Below, in pieces: positions 4,108 to 25,720 of a DNA stretch of 35,432 nucleotides (the stretch's first letter is position 1; the number at the start of each line of letters is the position of its first letter). Under the pieces are notes generated by a model. The model did not search any database. It was not told the origin of the DNA and saw only the letters and a list, made by a program, of their open reading frames with translations. Both the position numbers and the translations under genes were made by a program. Location: the NCBI GenBank assembly GCA_947175425.1, contig CAMWMR010000025.1, positions 1 to 35,432 of the forward strand, in the 5' to 3' direction. This DNA comes from an uncultured Porphyromonadaceae bacterium. Its GTDB lineage: Bacteria; Bacteroidota; Bacteroidia; Bacteroidales; Muribaculaceae.

Positions 4108-4136
4108 AAACGGCCGGAAATTGCTTCCGGCCGTTT
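4108..4136. terminator. Hairpin terminator between convergent lipoprotein and ddl genes
   Basis: A perfect 12-bp stem, AAACGGCCGGAA (4108-4119) with TTCCGGCCGTTT (4125-4136), has a 5-nt loop. A/T-rich flanks on both sides allow it to serve both strands. Confidence 0.85.
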
Positions 4137-4155: not shown

Positions 4156-5352
4156 TTATTTTATTCCCTTTGCACCTTTTACTCCGCCTTTTACTCCTCC
4201 GCCCATGGCAAAGATATTGGCGTCGTAACTTACAGTCTTGGCCGATTGCTCGCGCTTGCGCTTGAGGGCAAGTTTTACAAGACGATCCATAAGGTCGGAG
4301 AATTTTATTCCGGCAGCTTCCCAAAGGTAGAACGACAGCGAGCCGGGAATGGTGTTAATCTCGTTCACATAAATATCGCGGGTCTTTCCGTCCACCATAA
4401 CGTCCACGCGGCTCACACCGTGACAACCGAGCACGCGGAAAGTTTCGCCGGCAAGAAAACGGATACGCTCGGTTTCGTCGGCGGGAAGGTCGGCAGGAAT
4501 ACGTTTTTTAGCGGCGTGCATACCGCGGTCGTCCTTAGTGCCGCCCATATATTTGTCCTGATACGACAGAATTTCGCCACTCTTTATAGGCTCTTCAAGT
4601 ACAGAGGTTACATACTCGTCGGCATCGCCGAGCACGGCACAGTTAATTTCCTGAAGATTTTCCACCATATCCTCCACAATAATGCGGGTTGAGTACAATC
4701 GCGCATCATCAATGCAGGCAATGAGCTGCTCACGGTTCTCAGCGCATCCTATACCCACGCTTGAGCCGAGGTTTGCCGGTTTTACAATAACAGGATAGCC
4801 CAATTTTTCCTCTATGCGTGCAATAAGCTCGTCGCGACGTGCGAACCATTGTTTGTCGGTAAACCACACATAGTCCACAACAGGAATTCCGTCGGCGGCA
4901 AGAATCATTTTCATTGTTATTTTGTCCATGCCGTTTGCAGAGGCAAGAGTGTTGCAACCTGCATATGGAATACCTATTGTTTCAAGGACACCTTCAAAAA
5001 TACCGTCCTCGCCGTTGGAACCGTGCAGAACAGGTATCACAACGTCAATTTCGGCAAGCGGTTTTGCACTGCCGAACAAACCTTTTGCTTTTGCCGGATA
5101 CAGTGCGTAATCGCCGTAAACGGGACGCATGTAAACCTCGGTGCATTCGGCAAGCAGTTTGTCGATATTACGGTAATTTTTCACATCGCGCAGTTTCTCG
5201 CCGGTATACCAGCGACCCTGCTTTGTTATATATACGGGAACAACATCATACAATTCGTCGTTAATCGCCGCCATGGCCTGATTGGCCGAAATTACGGATA
5301 TTTCATGTTCGGTGGAACGGCCGCCGAAAAAAACCGCTATGGTAGTTTTCAT
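4156..5352 (-). CDS. ddl: D-alanine--D-alanine ligase
   Basis: A cytoplasmic ATP-grasp ligase making D-Ala-D-Ala for peptidoglycan stem peptides. The length of 398 residues is somewhat longer than E. coli DdlB (about 306). FFGGRSTEHEIS at residues 8-19 is the Ddl N-terminal signature. KPANLGSSVGI (191-201) is the ATP-grasp core, and VNEINTIPGS near the C-terminus binds metal. In the omega loop, DKY (266-268) matches the Lys-Tyr pair of D-Ala-D-Ala ligases rather than the His of D-Ala-D-Lac enzymes. The last ~15 residues are a Gly/Lys tail with repeated VKGG/AKG units. It is the third gene of an operon, 8 bp after the MurF-like gene. Confidence 0.95.
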   Translation of the reverse strand: MKTTIAVFFGGRSTEHEISVISANQAMAAINDELYDVVPVYITKQGRWYTGEKLRDVKNYRNIDKLLAECTEVYMRPVYGDYALYPAKAKGLFGSAKPLAEIDVVIPVLHGSNGEDGIFEGVLETIGIPYAGCNTLASANGMDKITMKMILAADGIPVVDYVWFTDKQWFARRDELIARIEEKLGYPVIVKPANLGSSVGIGCAENREQLIACIDDARLYSTRIIVEDMVENLQEINCAVLGDADEYVTSVLEEPIKSGEILSYQDKYMGGTKDDRGMHAAKKRIPADLPADETERIRFLAGETFRVLGCHGVSRVDVMVDGKTRDIYVNEINTIPGSLSFYLWEAAGIKFSDLMDRLVKLALKRKREQSAKTVSYDANIFAMGGGVKGGVKGAKGIK

Positions 5353-5360
5353 TTTATATG

Positions 5361-6956
5361 CTATTTAAAAGTATCGGGAAGATCGTTTTCGTAAAGCACG
5401 GTATCGCCCTTGCCTGCAATTGTACGCAGCAGTTGCTGAGCCTGTGCAAATGTATCGGGAGTGTGAATATTCTGTTTGGGCATGCCTCCTTCGGCCAGTC
5501 CGCTGCAAATTGCTTCGCGGTTGTAAGCGCCAACGACTATTGCCACATCGCAGCTTGAAGCCGCCTTTCGCCCGAATTCCTTGTTGAGCTCAAATTCCTC
5601 GGTTCCAAGCTCAACCATTCCGGGAGTAACAAGTATTCGTTTTCCGTCCATGGCCGCCAGCACATCCAGCGCCATGGCAGAACCTACGGGATTGCTGTTA
5701 AATGCATCGTCGATAATAGTAAGGCCACCCGGAACACGCTTTATGCTCAAACGGTGCTCTACCTGCTCAAGCTGCTCGACGGCATATCTGATTTTTTCAT
5801 CGGGCACTCCCATGTGCTGCGCCATTACAACAGCACCGAGGATATTGGATATGTTGCATTCGCCCACAAGCCGTGTCCTCAGCTGCAGCGTGGCGCCGTC
5901 GCTGTTGCGGCGCACGGTAAAGTCGGTTCCTGCGTTGGAGTACTTTATATCGAATGCCACATAATCGGCATTTTCGGTATTCTTTACCGCATATCGCAGG
6001 CAGGGAACATTATCCACGGGGCGGTCGGCAATTTTTTCAAAATCATTATTCAGTACAATCAATCCGGTAGCCGGCAATGAGTCGGCAAGCTCGAATTTGG
6101 TGCGCTGAACATTATCGATAGTCTTGAACGATTCGAGGTGCTGTGGCCCCACAGCTGTTATAATACCGCGCTGAGGGTGTACAAGCCGGCATATCTCGGC
6201 AATGTCATCGGGTTGTTTGGCACCCATTTCAACCACAAACACCTCGTGGTAGGGCTTAAGATATTCGCGTATGGTACGCACAACACCCATTGTTGTATTG
6301 TAGCTGCCCGGGGTCATCAAGGTCTCGTAGTGCTCCGAGAGTATGCGGGTAAGATAATGCTTTGTGGTGGTTTTACCGTAGCTGCCTGTAATACCAATGA
6401 TTTTAAGATCGGGCATCTGTTCCAGTCGGCGACGCGCATCGTTAATATACTGCATGTTGATATTCTTCTCCCATGGCGACAGCAGCATTGCGGCAAGCAT
6501 AATGAGCAAATGCGATCCACAGTAGCATCCTATTAAAGTAACCGATGCAGTGAACAATGCACCCAAAATGCCGGGAGCGCTCATAAACGATACTGTGAGC
6601 GATGTTGCCAAGGCGGCGCACAGCAACGAGGCTGCAAAAATACGCATTGCCCTGTTTGTCATTACAAGCGGTTTCTTGTACTTTCGGCGAACAAGACTTA
6701 TTGTATTTATAATTGCGAACAATCCCATGAGAGGCATTGCAGCAACATGGGGCACCTTGGGAATAAGCGCCACAAAAAAGGTTGCGAAGCCCAGCATGCG
6801 GGCAACCGAAGTTGTGTCGCCGCTTTCCGAGAGCCACTTGCGGTAGCGGTCGATACGATAGGAATTCTGCTGGAACATCATCAGGTCGCGGCGCAGCTCC
6901 ATCACAAGATTCGCCGTTACCGTGAGCAGGGCTAAAATATATAAAGCTATTGTCAT
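5361..6956 (-). CDS. Membrane-anchored MurF-like Mur ligase
   Basis: This 531-residue protein couples a membrane N-terminus to a Mur ligase. Residues 1-165 hold about four hydrophobic segments (near 1-20, 52-90, 105-128 and 131-160) in place of the soluble UDP-substrate domain of MurF. The ATPase core follows: P-loop GITGSYGKTTT at 188-198 (Lys195), VVEMGA at 241-246 (Glu243), PQHLE with His273, and RTKFE with Lys287 where Mur ligases carry a carbamylated lysine. The later motif DDAFNSNPVGS matches the MurF DDxYNANP signature. The catalytic machinery looks intact, so it probably adds a dipeptide such as D-Ala-D-Ala, but to a membrane-associated acceptor. It lies 3 bp after the hydrolase gene and 8 bp before ddl. 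A role as the only cellular MurF is possible but less likely. Confidence 0.88.
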   Translation of the reverse strand: MTIALYILALLTVTANLVMELRRDLMMFQQNSYRIDRYRKWLSESGDTTSVARMLGFATFFVALIPKVPHVAAMPLMGLFAIINTISLVRRKYKKPLVMTNRAMRIFAASLLCAALATSLTVSFMSAPGILGALFTASVTLIGCYCGSHLLIMLAAMLLSPWEKNINMQYINDARRRLEQMPDLKIIGITGSYGKTTTKHYLTRILSEHYETLMTPGSYNTTMGVVRTIREYLKPYHEVFVVEMGAKQPDDIAEICRLVHPQRGIITAVGPQHLESFKTIDNVQRTKFELADSLPATGLIVLNNDFEKIADRPVDNVPCLRYAVKNTENADYVAFDIKYSNAGTDFTVRRNSDGATLQLRTRLVGECNISNILGAVVMAQHMGVPDEKIRYAVEQLEQVEHRLSIKRVPGGLTIIDDAFNSNPVGSAMALDVLAAMDGKRILVTPGMVELGTEEFELNKEFGRKAASSCDVAIVVGAYNREAICSGLAEGGMPKQNIHTPDTFAQAQQLLRTIAGKGDTVLYENDLPDTFK

Positions 6957-6959
6957 GTT

Positions 6960-7733
6960 CTACTTGTTAAAATTCAAAAAGCTTGCGAGCACTGCGGCCG
7001 TCTGAGCCGGGCGCTCCAAAAAAGAATAATGTCCTGCCTCGGGGTACGATACCAATCCTGCATCGGGAATAAGTTTTTGCATTGTTTTGGCATCGGAAAG
7101 CGGAGTTGCCGTATCCTTTTCACCCCAAATAAGCAGCACGGGCGCTTTTATGGAAGGCATTAAATGCTTGAGATCCTCGTTTACAACGCGGCTCATAATG
7201 GCGCGCATACGCGGCGACGCCGAAGCATAGTCCGACGAACCGGCCTTGCCACGCCACTTGTCAATCAAAGCTCCTCCACGCTTTTTGCCCAGCAACAGCG
7301 GCAGAATACGTTTTGCAAATTTAAAGCTGTACACTTTAAAATAATATTTGAGCGAGCGACGAGGTTTTATCCCTGCCGCATCCACAAGCACAAGGCTGTC
7401 GACATTGTTTCTCGAACCGTATACAATAGCAATACGTCCGCCGAACGAATGCCCCACAAGCACCGGCTTGACAAGATTCAGGCGCGAAGCAAATTCCTCA
7501 ATAAGGGCTGTATAATCCTCAACGCCCCACACCTCGGAAGGTTCATCCGATTCGCCGAAACCGGGCAAATCAATATTATACACCGTGGTGGACTCATGTG
7601 CAAGTGCATCGGCAAGCACCTGTACAGTCTCGGCGCGACAGCCCCAGCCATGCATCAGAATAACAGGTTTCGGTCCCGAACCGACAGTTATATAACGAAG
7701 CCGCAAACCGGCTATTTCTATAAATTTTTCCAT
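6960..7733 (-). CDS. Alpha/beta hydrolase fold protein
   Basis: A 257-residue cytoplasmic alpha/beta hydrolase with a complete triad. The nucleophile is Ser96 in GHSFGG (94-99), Asp207 is in GEKD (204-207), and His235 is in EAGHYSFLERP. The oxyanion motif HGWG lies at 28-31. A basic cap region at about 124-165 is rich in Lys/Arg and aromatic residues. There is no signal peptide. It is the first gene of a three-gene operon with the MurF-like ligase and Ddl, which suggests an ester, thioester or amide substrate linked to cell-wall precursors. The substrate cannot be named from the sequence. Confidence 0.9.
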   Translation of the reverse strand: MEKFIEIAGLRLRYITVGSGPKPVILMHGWGCRAETVQVLADALAHESTTVYNIDLPGFGESDEPSEVWGVEDYTALIEEFASRLNLVKPVLVGHSFGGRIAIVYGSRNNVDSLVLVDAAGIKPRRSLKYYFKVYSFKFAKRILPLLLGKKRGGALIDKWRGKAGSSDYASASPRMRAIMSRVVNEDLKHLMPSIKAPVLLIWGEKDTATPLSDAKTMQKLIPDAGLVSYPEAGHYSFLERPAQTAAVLASFLNFNK

Positions 7734-7748
7734 TATCTAAAAAACATG

Positions 7749-7781
7749 CAAATATACTAATAAGTCAAGAGTAATGCCAAA
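7749..7781 (-). promoter_or_regulatory. Promoter of the hydrolase/MurF-like/ddl operon
   Basis: Read on the minus strand, TTTG (7781-7778), a 21-bp spacer and TATATTTG (7756-7749) match the Bacteroidota consensus. The transcript would start near 7742, only about 10 nt before the hydrolase ATG at 7733. Confidence 0.7.
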
Positions 7782-9014: not shown

Positions 9015-10658
9015 TTATTTCTTTTGGGAGGACTGATATTCGGCATGGTAATCGTCCAGAATCTGTCGTATTTCCTTACCGATAACTACATAGTCGGCTG
9101 TTTTCAAATTGGCTTCCGAAACACGGATAGACCATTCCGGGCCGTCGAAACCCGAGCCGTTTAGTACCACAATACCTTTTTCGGCAGCAAGACGCATTAC
9201 AACATCCAGCGAATTGTGCGCTCCGGCAAGCCAGGCGGCAAAATCATCGCCGTAGAGCTTCTTGGCCCATACCATGAGGTCGATTTCGCTGTAGTATCCC
9301 ACGCGCAAGGGATCCTCGGGCATATGGAAGCCTGTAGAATCCCACAGCGCATCCAGACGCTGATGAATCAACTGATGCATCTTGCCCTTGTAATCGTTTT
9401 TGGTGTCGATAAGGCATTTGAGAGCAAACAGACTCATCTGCACTTGCTGCGGCGTGGAAAGACCGGCAGTATGGTTCAATGCCACATCGCGGGAATCGGC
9501 CACCATACGGTCGATAAATTTCATTGAGGGCACGTCGAGTGTAGTGGAGCCGTAACGGTCGGCAAGGTCTTTGCGTTCCTCCTCGGGCAGCTCGGCAATG
9601 AGCTTGTCCATAAGATTCTGCTGAGCTGCGGCCACAACGGCAAGACGCCAGCCTGTAGCTCCAAAATATTTGGAGAACGAGTATACACACAAGGTGTTGA
9701 AAGGCAAGGCATACATGAGCGAGCGGAAATTATCGGCAAAAGTTCCGTAAACGTCATCGGTAACCACAATCAGATTAGGATTGTCCTTTTTAACAATATC
9801 CACAATACGGTTCAGGTTATCCTCGCTAAGACGGTAGCTCGGCGGGTTGGAAGGATTAATCACACATACCAGTTTCACCGCCGGGTCGCGCAGTTTGTCG
9901 AGTTCTTCGTCGGGATACTGCCAATAGTGATATCCGTCGGCTTCCACAGGATTGGCACTCACGGTAACAACATCGAAGCTGTATCGGTCCAGCTGAGGAA
10001 TCTCAATGTAAGGAGTGAACAAAGGAGCCATAAGGGCAATTTTATCGCCTTTTTTCACAAGGTGGTTCACCTGGAGCGAATTGAATATATAGCACATTGC
10101 CGCAGTTCCGCCTTCGGTAGCGAAGAGGTCGTATTCCTTGCCTCCGCCGGCAGCGTTATCGCCCATTTCCTGAGCAAGATACGGACGTATTGCCATTTCG
10201 GCAAAATTGAGGATACGGGGAGGGGTGGGATAATGGTCGCCGGAAATTGCATCGGCCAGTTCGTATACCAGTGTATCGGGGTCGGCCTGCAATTTTTCAA
10301 CCATATAATGATAGCTCTTTGCAAGCAGCTCGCCGCCTTCGGAATCGCTGTTCTTTTCAAGGAAAGCCTCGAAACGTTGAGCTATGCCCTCGCAATGCGG
10401 AGTTGCGGCAATACCCGGCGAAGCCTGATACACACGCTTGCATTCCTCCATTGCAAACTTGCCAAGAGTAAAAAATGCCTCGCGTGCGTCGTAGGCAATC
10501 CAGTTGGGGTTACCTCGGCCCGCATTCAAAAATGCGGCACTCGATTTGCGCGCATCGGCCTGCGCAAGTGCAATAAGTTCGTTTTTAATTTCGAAAGGGC
10601 TCATTTGTGAAAGCTTGCTTTCGTAATTGGGATTAAGGGGATTTTTTGGAGTATCCAT
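9015..10658 (-). CDS. asdA: Aspartate 4-decarboxylase (bifunctional aspartate aminotransferase)
   Basis: A PLP enzyme of 547 residues, the normal size for AsdA/AspD. It converts L-aspartate to L-alanine and CO2 in the cytoplasm. The fold-type I domain contains NAGRGNPNW (45-53), TEGGTAAM (181-188), NPSNPPSYRLS (268-278), VVTDDVYG (298-305) and the Schiff-base Lys330 in SFSKYFGATGWRL. The N-terminal extension and the insertion at about 105-165 distinguish it from ordinary aspartate aminotransferases. It lies 31 bp after aspT in the same direction, the partner needed to feed in aspartate and remove alanine. Confidence 0.95.
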   Translation of the reverse strand: MDTPKNPLNPNYESKLSQMSPFEIKNELIALAQADARKSSAAFLNAGRGNPNWIAYDAREAFFTLGKFAMEECKRVYQASPGIAATPHCEGIAQRFEAFLEKNSDSEGGELLAKSYHYMVEKLQADPDTLVYELADAISGDHYPTPPRILNFAEMAIRPYLAQEMGDNAAGGGKEYDLFATEGGTAAMCYIFNSLQVNHLVKKGDKIALMAPLFTPYIEIPQLDRYSFDVVTVSANPVEADGYHYWQYPDEELDKLRDPAVKLVCVINPSNPPSYRLSEDNLNRIVDIVKKDNPNLIVVTDDVYGTFADNFRSLMYALPFNTLCVYSFSKYFGATGWRLAVVAAAQQNLMDKLIAELPEEERKDLADRYGSTTLDVPSMKFIDRMVADSRDVALNHTAGLSTPQQVQMSLFALKCLIDTKNDYKGKMHQLIHQRLDALWDSTGFHMPEDPLRVGYYSEIDLMVWAKKLYGDDFAAWLAGAHNSLDVVMRLAAEKGIVVLNGSGFDGPEWSIRVSEANLKTADYVVIGKEIRQILDDYHAEYQSSQKK

Positions 10659-10689
10659 TTCTTATAATCAGTTTATAGTTCGTTTATAT

Positions 10690-12393
10690 TCAAGCGCATA
10701 TCAATGTTATGGCAACGCCCATCAGAATAAGCAAGGTATTGGCAACGGCATAGGTTATGGTATAGCCCAACGCCGGTGTAGTGGAGCCGAGGGCGTCCTG
10801 TATGGCGCCGAGCGATGCTGTTGTTACACGGCTGCCGGCAACGCATCCAAGGTTTATGGCAGGGTGGAACTTAAAAATTTTGTCACCCATCCAAATTCCT
10901 ATTATAAGCGGCAATGTTGTTGCAATTACGCCGGCAACGAAAAGCATTGCGCCCACTTCCTTTATACCGCTTACAAAGGTTGGAGCGGCGGTAATACCTA
11001 TCACGGCAATAAACATGTTAAGTCCCAGATTGTTGAGCAGCCACACCGATGAATCGGGAATACGGCCGAAAGTGGGATGTTTGGAACGCAGCCATCCAAG
11101 CACAAGACCTGCGATAAGAGCACCGCCCGAAGTGCTCAGACTTACGGGAATACCGCCCAATCGAATTGTAATGGCGCCAATAAGAGCACCGATAAAAATA
11201 CCGAGGCCTACGAAAACCATATCGGTTACATTGGAGGGACGGTCGGCGTAACCTATCTCTTTGGCGGCGGCGTCCACCTCGCGTTTAAGTCCTGCAACGG
11301 TAATCATGTCGCCGCGATACAGTTTTGTTTTGGCAAGAACCGGCAAAGTCTGCCCTGCCCGCGACACCGAAACAATGGCCACGCCCTGCATTGCAGGCAC
11401 GGCACGCAGCTCGTCGATTGTTTTACCCTCCATAGCCTTGTTTGCTATCATCACCGGAATTTTTTCAACAGGGAATGAAAGCAGTTCCGCATCGGCAACT
11501 TCCGGGCCGAGCCACGATTCATCCTCTACAATAAACTCACGGCGGCCGCTAAGCACAATAACATCGCCTTTTGCAATGCTTTGACCGGGTGCGGGAGAAT
11601 CTATAATCTGTCCGTTTGAACGCACGCGCTCAACAAACATGCGTCGATCCATTTCGGATATATGTTTTTCCACATCGGCCACTGTAGACGCGTTATTGAA
11701 AAACTCACCCTCCACCGAGTAAGCTCGGAAAGCCACGGGGCGCAAGGCGTTCATCATGGAGGGGTCGGAAGATATGGAGCTGTCGTTCAATGTCTTTTCC
11801 AGCTCTATTGTCTGCTGACGCACTTTTTTAATACCGCCGAGCATCATCGGACCTATATAGCTGAGAATATATGCCGAACCGATTGTACCGAAAATATATG
11901 TAACCGCGTAGCATACCGGAATAATATCCATCCAGTTCTGTTTGTCGGCTGCCGATGCTCCGAGGGTTTTGATAGTATCGTCACCCACACCTATGACAGC
12001 CGAAATTGTCTGCGCACCGGCAAAAAGTCCGGCCGCCTCACCGGGATTATAGCCAAAGATTTTTGCAACGCCGACAGTCACCGCAAGAGTGAGCACACAC
12101 ATCACCACCGCAAAAATAACCTGCTTGATTCCGGTACCTTTGAGCGCACGGAAAAACTGCGGGCCTACGCTATAACCTATTGCAAAAAGGAAAAGCAGGA
12201 AGAACAGCGATTTTACAGGACCTGATATGGGAATATCAAGTTGTCCCACAAGAACGCCCACAAGCAGCACCGATGTTACGGTACCCAGCGAAAAAGTTTT
12301 ATATTTGAATTTTCCAATCCAGAATCCGAGTCCCAATGTCAGAAAAATGGGAATTGAAGGATTGTCGCGAAACGTTTGAACAAGCCAGTCCAT
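10690..12393 (-). CDS. aspT: Aspartate:alanine antiporter
   Basis: An inner-membrane exchanger of the AspT family (AAEx), 567 residues. An N-terminal block of about five transmembrane segments (residues 10-190) and a matching C-terminal block (about 385-565) flank a cytoplasmic region (about 205-370) with two TrkA-C-like domains. GLFAGAQTISAVIGVGDD in the N-half and GCVAGSRVTTASLGA in the C-half are the paired repeats of the family. With asdA, electrogenic aspartate-in/alanine-out exchange plus cytoplasmic decarboxylation consumes a proton and yields a proton motive force. No consensus promoter is obvious in the 55 bases just upstream, but a tandem repeat lies at 12448-12465. Confidence 0.94.
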   Translation of the reverse strand: MDWLVQTFRDNPSIPIFLTLGLGFWIGKFKYKTFSLGTVTSVLLVGVLVGQLDIPISGPVKSLFFLLFLFAIGYSVGPQFFRALKGTGIKQVIFAVVMCVLTLAVTVGVAKIFGYNPGEAAGLFAGAQTISAVIGVGDDTIKTLGASAADKQNWMDIIPVCYAVTYIFGTIGSAYILSYIGPMMLGGIKKVRQQTIELEKTLNDSSISSDPSMMNALRPVAFRAYSVEGEFFNNASTVADVEKHISEMDRRMFVERVRSNGQIIDSPAPGQSIAKGDVIVLSGRREFIVEDESWLGPEVADAELLSFPVEKIPVMIANKAMEGKTIDELRAVPAMQGVAIVSVSRAGQTLPVLAKTKLYRGDMITVAGLKREVDAAAKEIGYADRPSNVTDMVFVGLGIFIGALIGAITIRLGGIPVSLSTSGGALIAGLVLGWLRSKHPTFGRIPDSSVWLLNNLGLNMFIAVIGITAAPTFVSGIKEVGAMLFVAGVIATTLPLIIGIWMGDKIFKFHPAINLGCVAGSRVTTASLGAIQDALGSTTPALGYTITYAVANTLLILMGVAITLICA

Positions 12394-13551: not shown

Positions 13552-16500
13552 ATGAAAAAGAGCATACTACTCATCACTGCAATTGCATTGGCTTCGGGAG
13601 CCGGAGCCTATGCTTACGAGTTCCAGAAAAAGGACGCCTCCGACCTTCGTGTATACGTCGACCCCGGACACGGCGGCTTTGGTGCCGGCGACCGTCACAT
13701 GGGAACCATTAAACATGGACTGTCCGATGCTGTAAACCAGGTATATAACGATACTACCGGTTTTTTTGAATCAAACACAAATCTGTGGAAATGTTTCGGC
13801 CTTGTAGATAAACTGCACAGCTACGGCCTTAAGTTCGATGCCTCCAAAGGTGGACGCGATTTCACAAACAATATTGTTATGAGTCGCGTTAAAAATGTGT
13901 GGCAGAACGGAGGTCCCGACATCACAGAAATATCACGCGAAGTATACGACAACAACTTCGACTTTTTCATTTCCGTGCATTCCAACGCTCATGTCGACGG
14001 CAACAACACAAACTATCCCGCATTCTTCGTCAGAGGAGAGAATCGCACCGCAAGTGTAGAAGGCTCCGATGACGCTGCACGTATAGTATGGCCATATGCC
14101 TATAAAAACGAGCACAGCTGCTGGAGTTTTTATTCCCTGACAAATCCGGGGCTTTATTACGATATCGACTTCTGGAGCGGTGACTATGCCCTCACAACCC
14201 ATCACGACGGCAACGTTGTCAAAGGATACTATGCCGTTCTTCGCCACAACACACCGGGCTTCCTTGTAGAAGGTTACTTCCACACTTATCAGCCGGCCCG
14301 TCACCGCGCCATGAATCCCGATGTATGCCGTCACGAGGGCGAATCCTACGCTCGCGGTATTGCCGATATTTTCGGTATCGAAAAGGAAAAAACCGGCGAG
14401 ATTTACGGTATCGTGCGCGACAAACACGAAAAATTCATCCACAACTATTATCATTGCTCGGCAGTTTCGCCCGATGCACTCAAACCTCTGAACAACGTCA
14501 AAGTACAACTGCTTAAGGACAACCAAGTCATTAAAGAGTACACTACCGACGACGAATGGAACGGCGCTTTCCTTTTCAAAGATCTTGAAGAGGGCGACTA
14601 CTACCTCCGCGCCTCGGCCGAAGGGTACAAAGACCTTGAAGAAGAGTATTACGGTCCTTACACCGTACAGGCCGCCGCAGGAACATATCCGCGTATCTAT
14701 CTTGAGAACGAAGAGTATGTTCCGCCCACAGTCATCTATTTCGACTATCCCGACGAAGTGGACAGCAAGGCATTCAAAGTTGCTTCGGCCTATAACTTCA
14801 CTACCAAAGCCGCCGATGTTGAAATTCCGGCGCTGGAAGGCAAAAACGTTAAGCGATTCATCGCCCGCGGCGAAAATCTCTACGTACTTGCACACGATTC
14901 CAATCTCATGCCCACACTCCTTGTACTCGATGCAGCCACTCTCGCTGTAAAAGCAGAGGTTTCAACTGAAGGAACCGAAGGCTCGATGTCGCCGCTGAGC
15001 GATATTCAGGTTACTTCCGACGGTGTTCTCATCGGCTGTGCCAACGAACTTTGCCACATTGCGCAAGACTATGTGGAGGCCGGCGAAACATTTGGTGTCT
15101 GCAACATTTACAAGTGGGAAAACGATGACAAGGGCATACCTGCAGGCGCTCCCTCCGTATGGTTCACAACTTCGGTAACCGCCAATTTCTTCCGTGCACA
15201 CACAGGATACACAATGGCCTACACCGGAACTTCCGACGAAGGTGTAATGTATCTGCCCTCGGCATCTACATATTATGAACGCAAAGTGTGGCTGAATTAC
15301 ATTGATATAGCAAACGGCGAAAAAGTTTCGGAATCTTTCGTTAACGATACCCGCGATGGAATGAACATGGACGCTCTCGGCGAAGACTACACAATAACCG
15401 TTTCGCCCGTAAAAGCCGGTTCGTTTATTGTTAACAGCGCAAAAATGACTCCCATGCAGTTTGCCAAAACCGGATATGCCTACGAAGGCAAGATGGGCGA
15501 CGGACTCGTGCAGCCGGCAAGCGCTCGCGAAGCTTATTTTGTAATGGCCGGACAAGCCATTATGGCTGTTGCCGACATGGACGGTGAAAACCACGCCGGA
15601 ACAAGCATGCTCAACATTACCGACGGCCTGGAAAATGCCCGCCCAATTTCCACTGCCAACACCGCAATGGAAGCTTCTGCTGCCAAGGCCGCTACAGCAG
15701 CACGTCCCGTTATAAGCCGCGACAACGACGGTAACATGACTGCCGCCAACATCGAACTTTACGCTCTGCGCGGAAACAAAATAACTCACTTCACAACTGC
15801 AGGTGCCGAACAGCCTCTGGTTCGCGGCAACTGGGCTTACGGACTGAAATCGGAACTCGACGGAGAGGATTCATATACACTCACCTTCAGTCTCACCGAT
15901 GCAGCCGCTGCTCGTATAGAACTGCTTCCCGACGCCGATTCTTCCGATATTATAGTAGTTGCCTCCGGCGAATTTGAAAAAGGCGAGAACAGCGTGAGCC
16001 TCGACGCCAACTCCTTCTCAGGAAACCGCAAATGGCAGGTTGTTGTTGAAAATGGAGCTGTTCCCACCGTGCAGCCTGTATTCGTCAGCAAGATATCGTC
16101 CAACTGTGTGACTCTTGACCTCAATCCCGAATCGCAATACTTCGGCAACGCCTACGTAGGCGGATTTGAAGAACAACAGGGCGTATTCACGTTCTCGCCG
16201 GCTCTTGAGCAGGAGAATTCCGTAGCTTATCAGAAAGGCGAATGGCTCGCCGGTTCCAAGGTTTCGCCCTTCCGCATGAGTGTTCTTCCTTCCGGAACTG
16301 TTCTCCTGGCCGACTGGAGTGACCCCGAAGGCGGTATTTACAAATTCGACCCCGCAAATCCCGATGCAGAACGTGCATCCTTGTTCCAGGGTACTATCAA
16401 TCCCAATTCCGGAGAATGGACCTGCAACGGAAAAGTTATAGGCGGCTCAACATCCGGCCTCGCTGTATATGGTACCGGTGAAGACACCCGTCTGTTCTCG

Positions 16501-17238
16501 TTCCAGGAAGATTATCCTTCCGACTACTCGCTTTCGATGGTATGCTACAACATCGGCACAGAAGAAACCATAAGCACCGTGCCCGATGTAGTGTTCTCCA
16601 AAGTTTCGCCCCTCATGATTAACGGAATGGTAGACCTCGCCGTTAACAAGAATTATATTGTTGCAGGCCAATCCCGTTCCGACGGCAACAACTCCAAGGC
16701 TGTTCCCGTATTTGTTGTTTTCGATTTTGACGGTAACATTCTTCTCAATTCCGGCAATATCGAAAGTATAAAGGGCGGCATTGGCAACGTGGCCACTACC
16801 CCCGACGGCAAACTGTTCGCTTATCAGGACAACTCGGGTTATATCCACGTAGGTGAAATGACCTTTACCGAATCGACCGACGAGCCTTTGCAGTACAACG
16901 AGGTGTACAGCTTCAATCTTCTTGCTCCCGGCGGCTCGGTTGCAAACGGCTATCAGATTGCGTTCGACCCCTCGGGCAACCTGTACGTTGGAAACCGCTC
17001 AAGCTTCCGTGTATTCGCACTTCCGCAGGACGCTGTTGAAACAGCAACTCCGGCTCGTGCCGAATTTGTTCTAAACGGCAAACAGGAAAGCATTGAAAAC
17101 GTTGCTGTTGACCAGGCTCCTAAGGGTTCGGTTGAATACTTCAATCTCCAGGGCATCCGCGTTAACGCCGACAACATGCCTGCCGGTGTATACATCCGCC
17201 GTCAGGGAGGCGAAAGCACTAAAGTATTTGTAAAATAA
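13552..17238 (+). CDS. Large exported N-acetylmuramoyl-L-alanine amidase with C-terminal sorting-like tail
   Basis: A 1228-residue secreted protein with signal peptide MKKSILLITAIALASGAGAYA. Residues 30-275 form an Amidase_3-type domain. Zinc ligands are His40 (DPGHGG), Glu73 (FFESN) and His143 (SVHSNAH), with catalytic Glu240 in FLVEGYFHTY. It should cleave the MurNAc-L-Ala bond of peptidoglycan. Residues of about 283-392 are a carboxypeptidase-regulatory-like beta-sandwich (GEIYGIVRDKHEKF, then FLFKDLEEGDYYLRA). About 400-1185 looks like repeated propeller strands without a clear enzyme. The last ~37 residues (VEYFNLQGIRV, then PAGVYIRRQGG and KVFVK) resemble Bacteroidota type IX sorting tails. 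Most amidases of this family are 200-450 residues, so the long region is unusual. Confidence 0.9.
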   Translation: MKKSILLITAIALASGAGAYAYEFQKKDASDLRVYVDPGHGGFGAGDRHMGTIKHGLSDAVNQVYNDTTGFFESNTNLWKCFGLVDKLHSYGLKFDASKGGRDFTNNIVMSRVKNVWQNGGPDITEISREVYDNNFDFFISVHSNAHVDGNNTNYPAFFVRGENRTASVEGSDDAARIVWPYAYKNEHSCWSFYSLTNPGLYYDIDFWSGDYALTTHHDGNVVKGYYAVLRHNTPGFLVEGYFHTYQPARHRAMNPDVCRHEGESYARGIADIFGIEKEKTGEIYGIVRDKHEKFIHNYYHCSAVSPDALKPLNNVKVQLLKDNQVIKEYTTDDEWNGAFLFKDLEEGDYYLRASAEGYKDLEEEYYGPYTVQAAAGTYPRIYLENEEYVPPTVIYFDYPDEVDSKAFKVASAYNFTTKAADVEIPALEGKNVKRFIARGENLYVLAHDSNLMPTLLVLDAATLAVKAEVSTEGTEGSMSPLSDIQVTSDGVLIGCANELCHIAQDYVEAGETFGVCNIYKWENDDKGIPAGAPSVWFTTSVTANFFRAHTGYTMAYTGTSDEGVMYLPSASTYYERKVWLNYIDIANGEKVSESFVNDTRDGMNMDALGEDYTITVSPVKAGSFIVNSAKMTPMQFAKTGYAYEGKMGDGLVQPASAREAYFVMAGQAIMAVADMDGENHAGTSMLNITDGLENARPISTANTAMEASAAKAATAARPVISRDNDGNMTAANIELYALRGNKITHFTTAGAEQPLVRGNWAYGLKSELDGEDSYTLTFSLTDAAAARIELLPDADSSDIIVVASGEFEKGENSVSLDANSFSGNRKWQVVVENGAVPTVQPVFVSKISSNCVTLDLNPESQYFGNAYVGGFEEQQGVFTFSPALEQENSVAYQKGEWLAGSKVSPFRMSVLPSGTVLLADWSDPEGGIYKFDPANPDAERASLFQGTINPNSGEWTCNGKVIGGSTSGLAVYGTGEDTRLFSFQEDYPSDYSLSMVCYNIGTEETISTVPDVVFSKVSPLMINGMVDLAVNKNYIVAGQSRSDGNNSKAVPVFVVFDFDGNILLNSGNIESIKGGIGNVATTPDGKLFAYQDNSGYIHVGEMTFTESTDEPLQYNEVYSFNLLAPGGSVANGYQIAFDPSGNLYVGNRSSFRVFALPQDAVETATPARAEFVLNGKQESIENVAVDQAPKGSVEYFNLQGIRVNADNMPAGVYIRRQGGESTKVFVK

Positions 17239-23618: not shown

Positions 23619-25598
23619 TCAGCGGATGGGGTGGTATTCCACAAAAGCTTCTATAGCTTCGTAAGAAGCAAGGCCGAGGCCTTCGTAGAGTTGCGCGGTG
23701 CCACGGTTACGTTCTTCGGCACGCTGCCAGAACAGACGGTCGTCGTCGCCGAGGAAGGGAGCGTTTTCCATCTGGCTCTGGTGTTTGAGAATAGAGTTGC
23801 GTTTGAAGCGCAGTTCTTCGGGGCTGATGGGCACTGCCATTTCGATGTGGTCGATTTCCCATTCTGCCCAAGCACCGCGATACATCCATATGCGGCAGTC
23901 TTTCATCCAGGGTTCGTCGATTAGTTCATCGATAGCGGCAAGAACGGCATCGGTACAAACCTTGTGAGTTCCGTGGGGGTCGGCAAGGTCGCCGGCAACG
24001 AAAATCTGCTGGGGTTTCACATCCTGGAGGAGTTTCTTTACAATATCGACGTCGCGCTGCTCGAGCTCGCCTTTCTTGATAGTACCGGTTTCGTAGAACG
24101 GCAGACGGAGGAAATGGATGTTTCCGGGTTTTACGCCAATGTAGTTGCAGGCGATAGTTGCTTCGGCCTGACGAATCATTGTTTTAATTTCGCGGATATC
24201 GGCGCTGTCCATATCGCCGGGTTTCTTGTCGGCTACAAATTCGTGTACTTCTTTGGAAAGTTTGTCGTAGCCGGCAGCAGCGAAACCGAACTGGGGCGCG
24301 ATTTTGTCCATCATGAGGAAATAGCGCATCATGTCCTCGTCGCCAACGGCAATGTTACCGCTGGTTTCGTAGGCAACATGTACATCGTGGTGCTGGTCGA
24401 CAAGGCGTTTGAGAGTTCCTCCCATGGAGATAACATCGTCATCGGGGTGGGGAGAGAACACAATCACGCGCTTGGGATAGGGATTTGCACGTTCGGGACG
24501 GTAGGTATCGTCGGCATTGGGTTTTCCGCCGGGCCAGCCTGTGATAGTGTGCTGAAGTTCGTTGAAAACCTTTATGTTCACGTTATATGCCGAGCCGTAG
24601 AGTGCGAGGAGTTCGCCAAGGCCCCAGTCGTTGTAATCTTTGTCGGTGAGCTTGAGAATGGGTTTGCCTGTCATGTTGCAAAGCCATACGATTGCGCGAC
24701 GGATGAGTTTGTCGGTCCACTCGCAGGAAGTCACTTTCCAGGGGTGGCTTATACGTGTGAGGTCTTCGGCACCGCCAAGGTCGGTAACAACCTTAACGTG
24801 GGGATGCCCCTGCAGGAAGGAGGCGGGAACAGCCGGTGAAGGTTCGCCTTCAACGGTTTTGTATATTATGTTGGCGCTGTTCTCACCCCATGCCATTGCA
24901 AGCACACGGTGTGCAGCTGTAACATTTGCAATACCAAGAGTTACAGCTGTTGTGGGAGCTTCCTCAATTTTATAATCCTTTGCTACATTGTGACGAGCCT
25001 GATTGCCCAACAGGACAAGACGGCAGTAGCTTGAAGCGGGTGTACCGGGTTCGTTGAACGCAATATTTCCGTTTGCTCCGATTTCGCACAAAGCAACATC
25101 AATGCCACCCTGGTCGGCAATCTGCTGTTCGTATGCCTGGCAGTATTCGAACATGGTGTCCTTTGTAACCTCGGGGTTGATGGTGAAAATATTTTCGGGC
25201 TTGATGTTCACATGGTCGAGGAAAATAGTGCGCAGACGTGCAAGTGTGGAGGGTCCTTCGGGATTGAGAGGGAAGAACTCGCTGATGTTGAAGAATACAA
25301 CATCATTGAAGTCAACTTCACCGTTTTTGTGCATCTTGATAAGTTCGGCGTATACCGAGTGAGTGCTGTTTCCGGCACCTCCGGCTATAACGCATTTACC
25401 TTTTCTCTCAACGTAACGTTTAATGTACTTCACCACCTGAGAAGCGATGTACGCTGCACCTTCGGGAGCTGTCTCGAAAATGTAGGTGTTGATTTTCTCC
25501 TCGCGACGCAATGCAGTCAGCTCTATTTCGCTGTCGGGATTGTAGTAGCGGCGGGGAATCCGGTCCAGCTTAATCTGGGAACTCAAATCCTTTTTCAT
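23619..25598 (-). CDS. NagB-like / LmbE (PIG-L) fusion protein, annotated in the family as glucosamine-6-phosphate deaminase
   Basis: 659 residues from the ATG at 25598; the longer frame to 25703 crosses the promoter and is rejected. Residues 1-300 resemble glucosamine-6-phosphate deaminase (VIAGGAGNSTHSVYAEL, then GNIAFNEPG). Residues 375-659 are a PIG-L/LmbE deacetylase domain with zinc motif HPDDD at 384-388 and DPHGTHK further on. The E. coli NagB residues Asp72, Asp141 and His143 appear replaced (NISEF; Asn176 and Asn178 in ANGNIAFNE), while Glu148 is kept as Glu183. The deaminase activity is therefore doubtful, whereas the deacetylase site looks intact. This long two-domain form is typical of Bacteroidales. 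It is transcribed alone. Confidence 0.88.
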   Translation of the reverse strand: MKKDLSSQIKLDRIPRRYYNPDSEIELTALRREEKINTYIFETAPEGAAYIASQVVKYIKRYVERKGKCVIAGGAGNSTHSVYAELIKMHKNGEVDFNDVVFFNISEFFPLNPEGPSTLARLRTIFLDHVNIKPENIFTINPEVTKDTMFEYCQAYEQQIADQGGIDVALCEIGANGNIAFNEPGTPASSYCRLVLLGNQARHNVAKDYKIEEAPTTAVTLGIANVTAAHRVLAMAWGENSANIIYKTVEGEPSPAVPASFLQGHPHVKVVTDLGGAEDLTRISHPWKVTSCEWTDKLIRRAIVWLCNMTGKPILKLTDKDYNDWGLGELLALYGSAYNVNIKVFNELQHTITGWPGGKPNADDTYRPERANPYPKRVIVFSPHPDDDVISMGGTLKRLVDQHHDVHVAYETSGNIAVGDEDMMRYFLMMDKIAPQFGFAAAGYDKLSKEVHEFVADKKPGDMDSADIREIKTMIRQAEATIACNYIGVKPGNIHFLRLPFYETGTIKKGELEQRDVDIVKKLLQDVKPQQIFVAGDLADPHGTHKVCTDAVLAAIDELIDEPWMKDCRIWMYRGAWAEWEIDHIEMAVPISPEELRFKRNSILKHQSQMENAPFLGDDDRLFWQRAEERNRGTAQLYEGLGLASYEAIEAFVEYHPIR

Positions 25599-25666
25599 TA
25601 TATAGTTGTGTTTCGGGCGATTTAACGCCTCTGTTGAATATATTTTTTTGCAACGGTTTAATTCAA

Positions 25667-25689
25667 GGTGCGGTATAGTATTCCGCACC
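25667..25689. promoter_or_regulatory. Inverted repeat at the transcript start of the NagB-LmbE gene
   Basis: GGTGCGG (25667-25673) and CCGCACC (25683-25689) are perfect 7-bp arms around 9 bases. The repeat covers the predicted start site near 25684, so it could be an operator or a 5'-end mRNA hairpin. Confidence 0.5.
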
Positions 25690-25690
25690 A

Positions 25691-25720
25691 CAAATTTAAC
25701 CAATGTTTCTTAAGCTGCAA
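25691..25720 (-). promoter_or_regulatory. Promoter of the NagB-LmbE gene
   Basis: Minus strand: TTG (25720-25718), a 19-bp spacer and TAAATTTG (25698-25691). A leader of about 86 nt precedes the ATG at 25598. Confidence 0.7.

Follow-up and report, generated by a model that had tools for sequence, protein, structure and literature searches.

A membrane-anchored MurF-type ligase encoded with an alpha/beta hydrolase and a Ddl as a candidate replacement for soluble MurF in gut Bacteroidales and other bacteria

We analyzed a stretch of 35,432 nucleotides from an uncultured Muribaculaceae bacterium (the window, contig CAMWMR010000025.1 of assembly GCA_947175425.1, C25 in our numbering), which harbors an operon encoding an alpha/beta hydrolase (ABH), a membrane-anchored MurF-type ligase (TM-MurF) and a D-alanyl-D-alanine (D-Ala-D-Ala) ligase (Ddl). 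MurF, the ligase that joins D-Ala-D-Ala to uridine diphosphate (UDP)-N-acetylmuramic acid (MurNAc)-tripeptide, is taught as a soluble enzyme completing UDP-MurNAc-pentapeptide in the cytoplasm. We hold with high confidence that TM-MurF is the sole MurF of the organisms that carry it and that the three genes form an obligate triad. Judging from sequence, we lean slightly towards reading the operon as a membrane-bound version of that branch of peptidoglycan precursor synthesis which makes and attaches D-Ala-D-Ala, acting on a lipid-linked acceptor.

A MurF catalytic core on a membrane domain

The operon reads ABH (6960..7733, 257 amino acids), TM-MurF (5361..6956, 531 amino acids) and Ddl (4156..5352, 398 amino acids), all on the minus strand and separated by gaps of 3 and 8 bases. 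In TM-MurF, Pfam recognizes only Mur_ligase_M (residues 189-379, 127.8 bits for a cut-off of 24) and Mur_ligase_C (residues 401-521, 48.4 bits for a cut-off of 28.4), the central and the C-terminal domain of Mur ligases, which together span residues 183-531 (5364..6410, minus strand). The protein contains K195 (within GSYGKT), E243, H273, K287 and the string DDAFNSNP, and these four residues, together with D416, D417 and N420, are invariant across 57 relatives. The catalytic motif set (P-loop Lys, Glu, His, carbamylated-type Lys and DDxxN) occurs in 70/70 TM-MurFs, and the exact string DDA[FY]N[SA]N in 69 of the 76 sequences of a different set.

The N-terminal domain of soluble MurF binds UDP. 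In its place, TM-MurF carries a membrane domain (residues 1-182; 6411..6956, minus strand), in which no N-terminal Mur domain was found by Pfam above cut-off; searches with this region alone gave no Pfam hit over cut-off, the best having E 0.48, and at E 1 matched no PDB sequence. An AlphaFold2 model of the protein (mean predicted local distance difference test score 93.9) places helices before the catalytic domains at residues 2-30, 35-45, 51-64, 70-90, 101-125, 130-146 and 148-179, which we interpret as about five predicted membrane helices and a short one; membrane helices were judged from structure models alone, hydropathy counting having been dropped as too crude. Residues Q29, Y33, K94, T100, R102, R105, P161, E163 and A174 of this domain are invariant. 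Those that are basic and polar map mostly to predicted cytosolic segments, and the invariant residues sit close to the membrane, on what the model suggests is the catalytic face. TM-MurF thus differs from soluble MurF (3zl8, 1gg4, 4cvm) in its membrane domain and in lacking a detectable N-terminal Mur domain, and also in its C-terminus, where the motif ENDLPD (residues 523-528; 5373..5390, minus strand), present in 76/76 TM-MurFs, replaces the KGS found in 15/15 soluble MurFs. It is likewise distinct from MurT of the MurT/GatD lipid II isoglutaminyl synthase, scoring 25.6 bits on the MurT model (cut-off 800) and having ABH as its partner; GatD is a glutaminase.

ABH matches the alpha/beta hydrolase fold family in Pfam and has a Ser96-Asp207-His235 triad that is invariant in 40/40 cases, so hydrolysis is expected. 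The enzyme falls under the cut-off of all 25 listed families of the 28 curated hydrolase equivalogs, and the proteins related to it in the PDB are a mixed set of esterases and C-C hydrolases. Ddl passes two D-Ala-D-Ala ligase models (342.8 bits, cut-off 262; 286 bits, cut-off 245.65), as DdlA-type enzymes do, and differs from Van D-Ala-D-X ligases in scoring below the cut-off of every Van model among the 25 families listed of 50.

An earlier note, made from the letters of the window, had described three tightly packed genes, a Mur ligase with intact core motifs and a hydrolase with an intact catalytic triad, all of which these results corroborate. Its proposal that membrane segments replace the UDP-substrate domain agrees with Pfam and AlphaFold2, its count of about four segments being raised to about five and a short one; the interval 4156..7756 does enclose the operon, but extends slightly past the ABH start at 7733.

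A single MurF and a conserved triad across genomes

The window belongs to a 2.5 Mb genome rated 99.99% complete, in which six Mur ligase matches were identified: TM-MurF, a MurF-Alr fusion, MurE, MurD, MurC (slightly under its cut-off) and FolC. A soluble MurF was not detected. The operon Ddl is also the only Ddl found; of the three other matches, all weak (38-40 bits), two fall within a single carbamoyl-phosphate synthase frame and the third is PurT.

The MurF-Alr fusion, known from Bacteroidota (NF008897), is another MurF-type protein of the same genomes, and differs from TM-MurF in its fusion to alanine racemase and its N-terminal Mur domain region. In the host (L041:1266-3683, contig C1) its MurF half has lost catalytic residues and scores 91.6 bits (cut-off 288.6), the racemase half being intact at 311 bits (cut-off 168); the whole protein, at 659.8 bits, lies under the bifunctional cut-off of 804. 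We compared 45 such fusions, leaving out two genomes of the 23 from the host family (G032, G052) and three of the 11 from other Bacteroidales (G421, G569, G401), which were unmatched at E 1e-32. The catalytic Asn of the fusion's DxYN motif is lost in 21/21 TM-MurF genomes of the host family, a loose text pattern having counted one case (1/21) that the aligned table does not contain, and also in 2/2 genomes of the family's genus g17, which have soluble MurF; the motif is kept in 13/14 soluble-MurF Bacteroidales. Mean identity within the host family is 42.7% for the MurF half of the fusion versus 62.4% for the racemase half, compared to 47.3% versus 54.2% among soluble-MurF Bacteroidales. MurF-Alr as the housekeeping MurF was consequently rejected for the host family, given the loss of the motif in all 21 genomes examined. 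With soluble MurF undetected and the fusion decayed in its MurF half, TM-MurF is the only intact MurF found in the host. The earlier note had regarded the operon as a second, membrane-located pathway alongside canonical enzymes; with neither another intact MurF nor a second Ddl found in the genome, we discarded this interpretation. The note had also conceded that the enzyme would be simply the housekeeping MurF if no other existed and the membrane form were universal in the phylum. In the host no other intact MurF was found, but a universal housekeeping MurF of the phylum was rejected, the membrane form occurring in 15/247 genomes of the host order and 61/296 of a phylum sample (the window's genome counted in both) and soluble MurF standing in for it elsewhere. 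Most of the other best matches listed in the order are frames of about 420-490 amino acids that match only from about residue 170. Within the host family TM-MurF is present in 57/59 genomes, and the two lacking it are those of genus g17; as these have soluble MurF, the family can carry the soluble form too.

To relate the two forms, soluble MurF was sought with the murF model in five genome sets, at thresholds of E 1e-32, 1e-25, 1e-40, 1e-52 and 1e-54, respectively; in the fourth and fifth sets (Bacilli and Lachnospiraceae-type genomes) the membrane form was told by profile start and frame length, save for fetched loci. The first set (23 host-family and 11 other Bacteroidales genomes with TM-MurF) contains soluble MurF in 0/34 of them, and 15 of its 16 genomes without TM-MurF have a full soluble MurF, the last (G437) showing two partial matches on two contigs. 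The second set, covering 37 of the 60 other TM-MurF genomes in the phylum sample, has soluble MurF in 0/37, and among its five genomes without TM-MurF three have soluble MurF and two have neither form. No soluble MurF occurs in the 34 TM-MurF genomes of the third set. The fourth, a Bacilli family around Pseudalkalibacillus, comprises 26 genomes with the soluble form only, seven with the membrane form only and one with both, i.e. soluble MurF in 1/8 TM-MurF genomes; in two of the soluble-MurF relatives, murF is by our reading grouped with further Mur ligase genes, an arrangement like that of a dcw cluster. The fifth, the order around a Lachnospiraceae metagenome-assembled genome (MAG), totals 127 genomes, with 112 soluble, 11 membrane only (0/11 with soluble MurF), two with cut soluble pieces and two with none. 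Combined, only 1/121 TM-MurF genomes (Bacteroidota, Clostridia, Bacilli and others) also has soluble MurF, after removal of three recurring genomes (G370 = G628; G595; G601); coordinates coincide for no other match, with the proviso that one species could count twice. Eleven of the weaker extra murF matches in TM-MurF genomes, the strongest included, were identified as nine MurE, one MurD and one fusion fragment (G620), and no fusion-sized match was obtained in TM-MurF genomes outside Bacteroidales at the murF-model thresholds used.

The partners of TM-MurF follow the same distribution. ABH lies beside TM-MurF in 29 of 30 host-family loci (window included) and Ddl in 30 of 30. Of 80 named loci, 67 have the three genes next to one another, 75 have ABH next to TM-MurF, and 70 have TM-MurF next to Ddl, adjacency being defined as same strand and within 300 bases, and some non-adjacent loci running off their contig. 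This conserved linkage, which the earlier note had proposed to look for, excludes a chance gene order. Represented among the named loci are Bacteroidales, Clostridia, Bacilli (Pseudalkalibacillus, Aquibacillus, Sinobaca) and a Poribacteria MAG, although MAG contigs may carry incorrect taxonomic titles. In a Synergistaceae locus, which starts close to TM-MurF, both TM-MurF and Ddl are retained. In Clostridia and Bacilli, the neighbors beyond the triad are by eye miscellaneous. Of 29 loci from other Bacteroidota classes, 10 have a full ABH directly upstream and two a partial match farther off, with Ddl in the fetched flank of 0/29; where ABH is unlinked in these classes, it is divergent from genes for a helix-hairpin-helix protein and a PorX-like response regulator in 8/8 loci (L347-L354, names given by eye), a neighborhood that offers no functional hint.

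An ABH profile (E 1e-30) matched 31/31 genomes with TM-MurF, unlinked cases included, and 0/13 of those without it, and a Ddl 40-76% identical to the window's is present in 16/16 TM-MurF genomes (in pieces in two). Of 15 genomes without TM-MurF, nine hold only a Ddl of 28-32% identity to the window's and six yield none at E 1e-20. A further difference between TM-MurF and soluble MurF is that every genome checked for these partners combines TM-MurF with ABH and a specific type of Ddl, and the tie between a Mur ligase core on a membrane domain, a Ddl and a hydrolase, first suggested from this one operon, is supported by co-occurrence. Across 49 loci the tree distances of ABH, TM-MurF and Ddl show correlations of 0.91-0.93, a level reached in 0/999 permutations and to which shared species history contributes. 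The co-occurrence of ABH and Ddl, together with the absence of soluble MurF, therefore indicates that the three genes form a module replacing the enzymes of the MurF/Ddl step.

Among named sequences, those nearest to TM-MurF (identity up to 65%) come mostly from MAGs that bear the title Muribaculaceae or another Bacteroidales name, which makes a Muribaculaceae host probable. A tree built from 119 sequences unites the 48 TM-MurFs of Bacteroidales in a single clade (support 0.98). This clade adjoins a group with Firmicutes, Bacilli, Poribacteria and other members, and 29 sequences from the remaining Bacteroidota classes stand apart. The root, on a long branch to soluble MurF, is unsupported (0.25), and the tree does not give the direction or number of transfers. 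Two further records were noted: a full-length TM-MurF (54.5% identity) at 4452-6044 of MT835658.1, probably a bacterial contig labelled 'Bacteriophage sp.', and a contig titled Muribaculaceae (L221) whose TM-MurF and neighbors are Lachnospiraceae-like, which is probably misbinned.

The acceptor and the order of the pathway

In the mechanism that we put forward, Ddl would make D-Ala-D-Ala and TM-MurF, held in the membrane by its N-terminal helical domain, would join it to the stem tripeptide at the expense of ATP, standing in for soluble MurF as the organism's only intact MurF-type enzyme. The acceptor would be a lipid-linked MurNAc-tripeptide (lipid I or II). The earlier note had proposed a lipid-linked or membrane-held acceptor, which is still plausible. 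In favor of the lipid-linked one are the loss of the UDP-binding domain and the invariant residues that its replacement has near the membrane; on these grounds we regard a lipid-linked acceptor as evenly poised between true and false. A lipid-linked acceptor implies that MraY acts before MurF, not after it, and MraY can accept a tripeptide substrate. ABH would be an active serine hydrolase needed by the membrane form of the pathway; a role in hydrolytic proofreading or in recycling stalled precursor is a guess, and an unlikely one. Extended to a broad set of bacteria, the scheme would have MraY loading UDP-MurNAc-tripeptide on undecaprenyl phosphate and membrane MurF completing the pentapeptide on lipid I/II under the policing of an obligate serine hydrolase, in a transferable module that has repeatedly replaced soluble MurF/Ddl, a generalization to which we attach somewhat less than even confidence.

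Several observations weigh against this interpretation. Membrane anchoring alone is no proof of a lipid-linked acceptor. TM-MurF scores 223.7 bits on the curated murF model TIGR01143, under its cut-off of 288.6. The Tyr motif YxxKY, typical of D-Ala-D-Ala ligases, is present as a string in the window's Ddl, yet in only 59/71 Ddls of the module. One Bacilli genome (G659, loci L322 and L323) carries both MurF forms, the soluble one beside a second Ddl. Finally, the DxYN motif of the MurF-Alr fusion is kept in 8/8 TM-MurF Bacteroidales examined outside the host family, where the fusion could share the work. Genome G659 is the sole double-MurF genome found, and may represent a transitional state or a mixed assembly.

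The invariant residues of the membrane domain also bear on the main alternative, in which TM-MurF is the sole MurF but acts on soluble UDP-MurNAc-tripeptide, its membrane domain docking beside MraY with no change in the order of the pathway. In catalytic core and in fold it corresponds to MurF structures with UDP-MurNAc-tripeptide bound (4cvm, 4cvk), and a swap between MurF forms would be easiest if the product were identical; yet Pfam finds no UDP-binding N-terminal domain, and the invariant residues exceed the needs of an anchor. We deem this alternative possible, though doubtful. The intact fusions outside the host family would suit another scenario, close to the second-pathway idea, whereby TM-MurF modifies some other membrane acceptor and MurF-Alr or an unrecognized enzyme adds D-Ala-D-Ala. 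That scenario appears improbable: the fusion has decayed in the host family, the extra murF matches checked in other phyla and classes are all MurE-, MurD- or fusion-like, and the presence of TM-MurF coincides with the absence of soluble MurF, Ddl being swapped along with it. The patchy distribution across phyla and the conservation of the whole module would also fit a tolerance module, in which a MurF/Ddl pair evades some natural compound that inhibits its soluble counterparts and the hydrolase destroys that inhibitor. We know of no natural inhibitor of this kind, and we rate the proposal as very improbable, given that ABH, TM-MurF and Ddl persist together even when scattered and that soluble MurF is absent, unlike what is expected of an accessory resistance module.

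Genomic surroundings and significance

A promoter-like site lies 5' of the operon (7751..7780, minus strand), and a 12-pair stem-loop (4108..4136), terminator-like on the plus strand only, separates Ddl from the neighboring gene, with which it converges; both sites are consensus matches only. The window contains nine promoter-like sites (5.6 expected from shuffled sequence) and eight terminator-like sites (5.9 expected), numbers not far above the shuffled expectation, and Rfam and tRNA scans of it were empty. Three further regions were annotated by eye, the first without a family search: an aspartate 4-decarboxylase-like aminotransferase adjoining an AspT-like antiporter (9015-12393), likely an aspartate-alanine pair near the D-Ala operon; an exported protein of 1228 amino acids whose start resembles N-acetylmuramoyl-L-alanine amidase (13552-17238); and a protein of 694 amino acids resembling glucosamine-6-phosphate deaminase fused to an LmbE-type deacetylase (23619-25703).

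We found no description of a membrane MurF in the literature searched, whose reach mostly excluded subscription papers, and passages from a study of the Mur-domain family name twelve groups, none of them called membrane-bound (PMC11915815). Soluble MurF appears to be replaced by a membrane enzyme in Bacteroidales that are common in the gut, as well as in certain Clostridia and Bacilli. None of the NCBI curated models names TM-MurF, and metabolic reconstructions may therefore report murF as missing. With its exact pattern of co-occurrence in 44 genomes and no known role, ABH presents a clear experimental target. Should the acceptor be lipid-linked, wall synthesis in these bacteria would have overlapping cytoplasmic and membrane stages, and inhibitors directed against the UDP site of MurF would fail to hit them; proof of such an acceptor would establish a new order for the textbook pathway.

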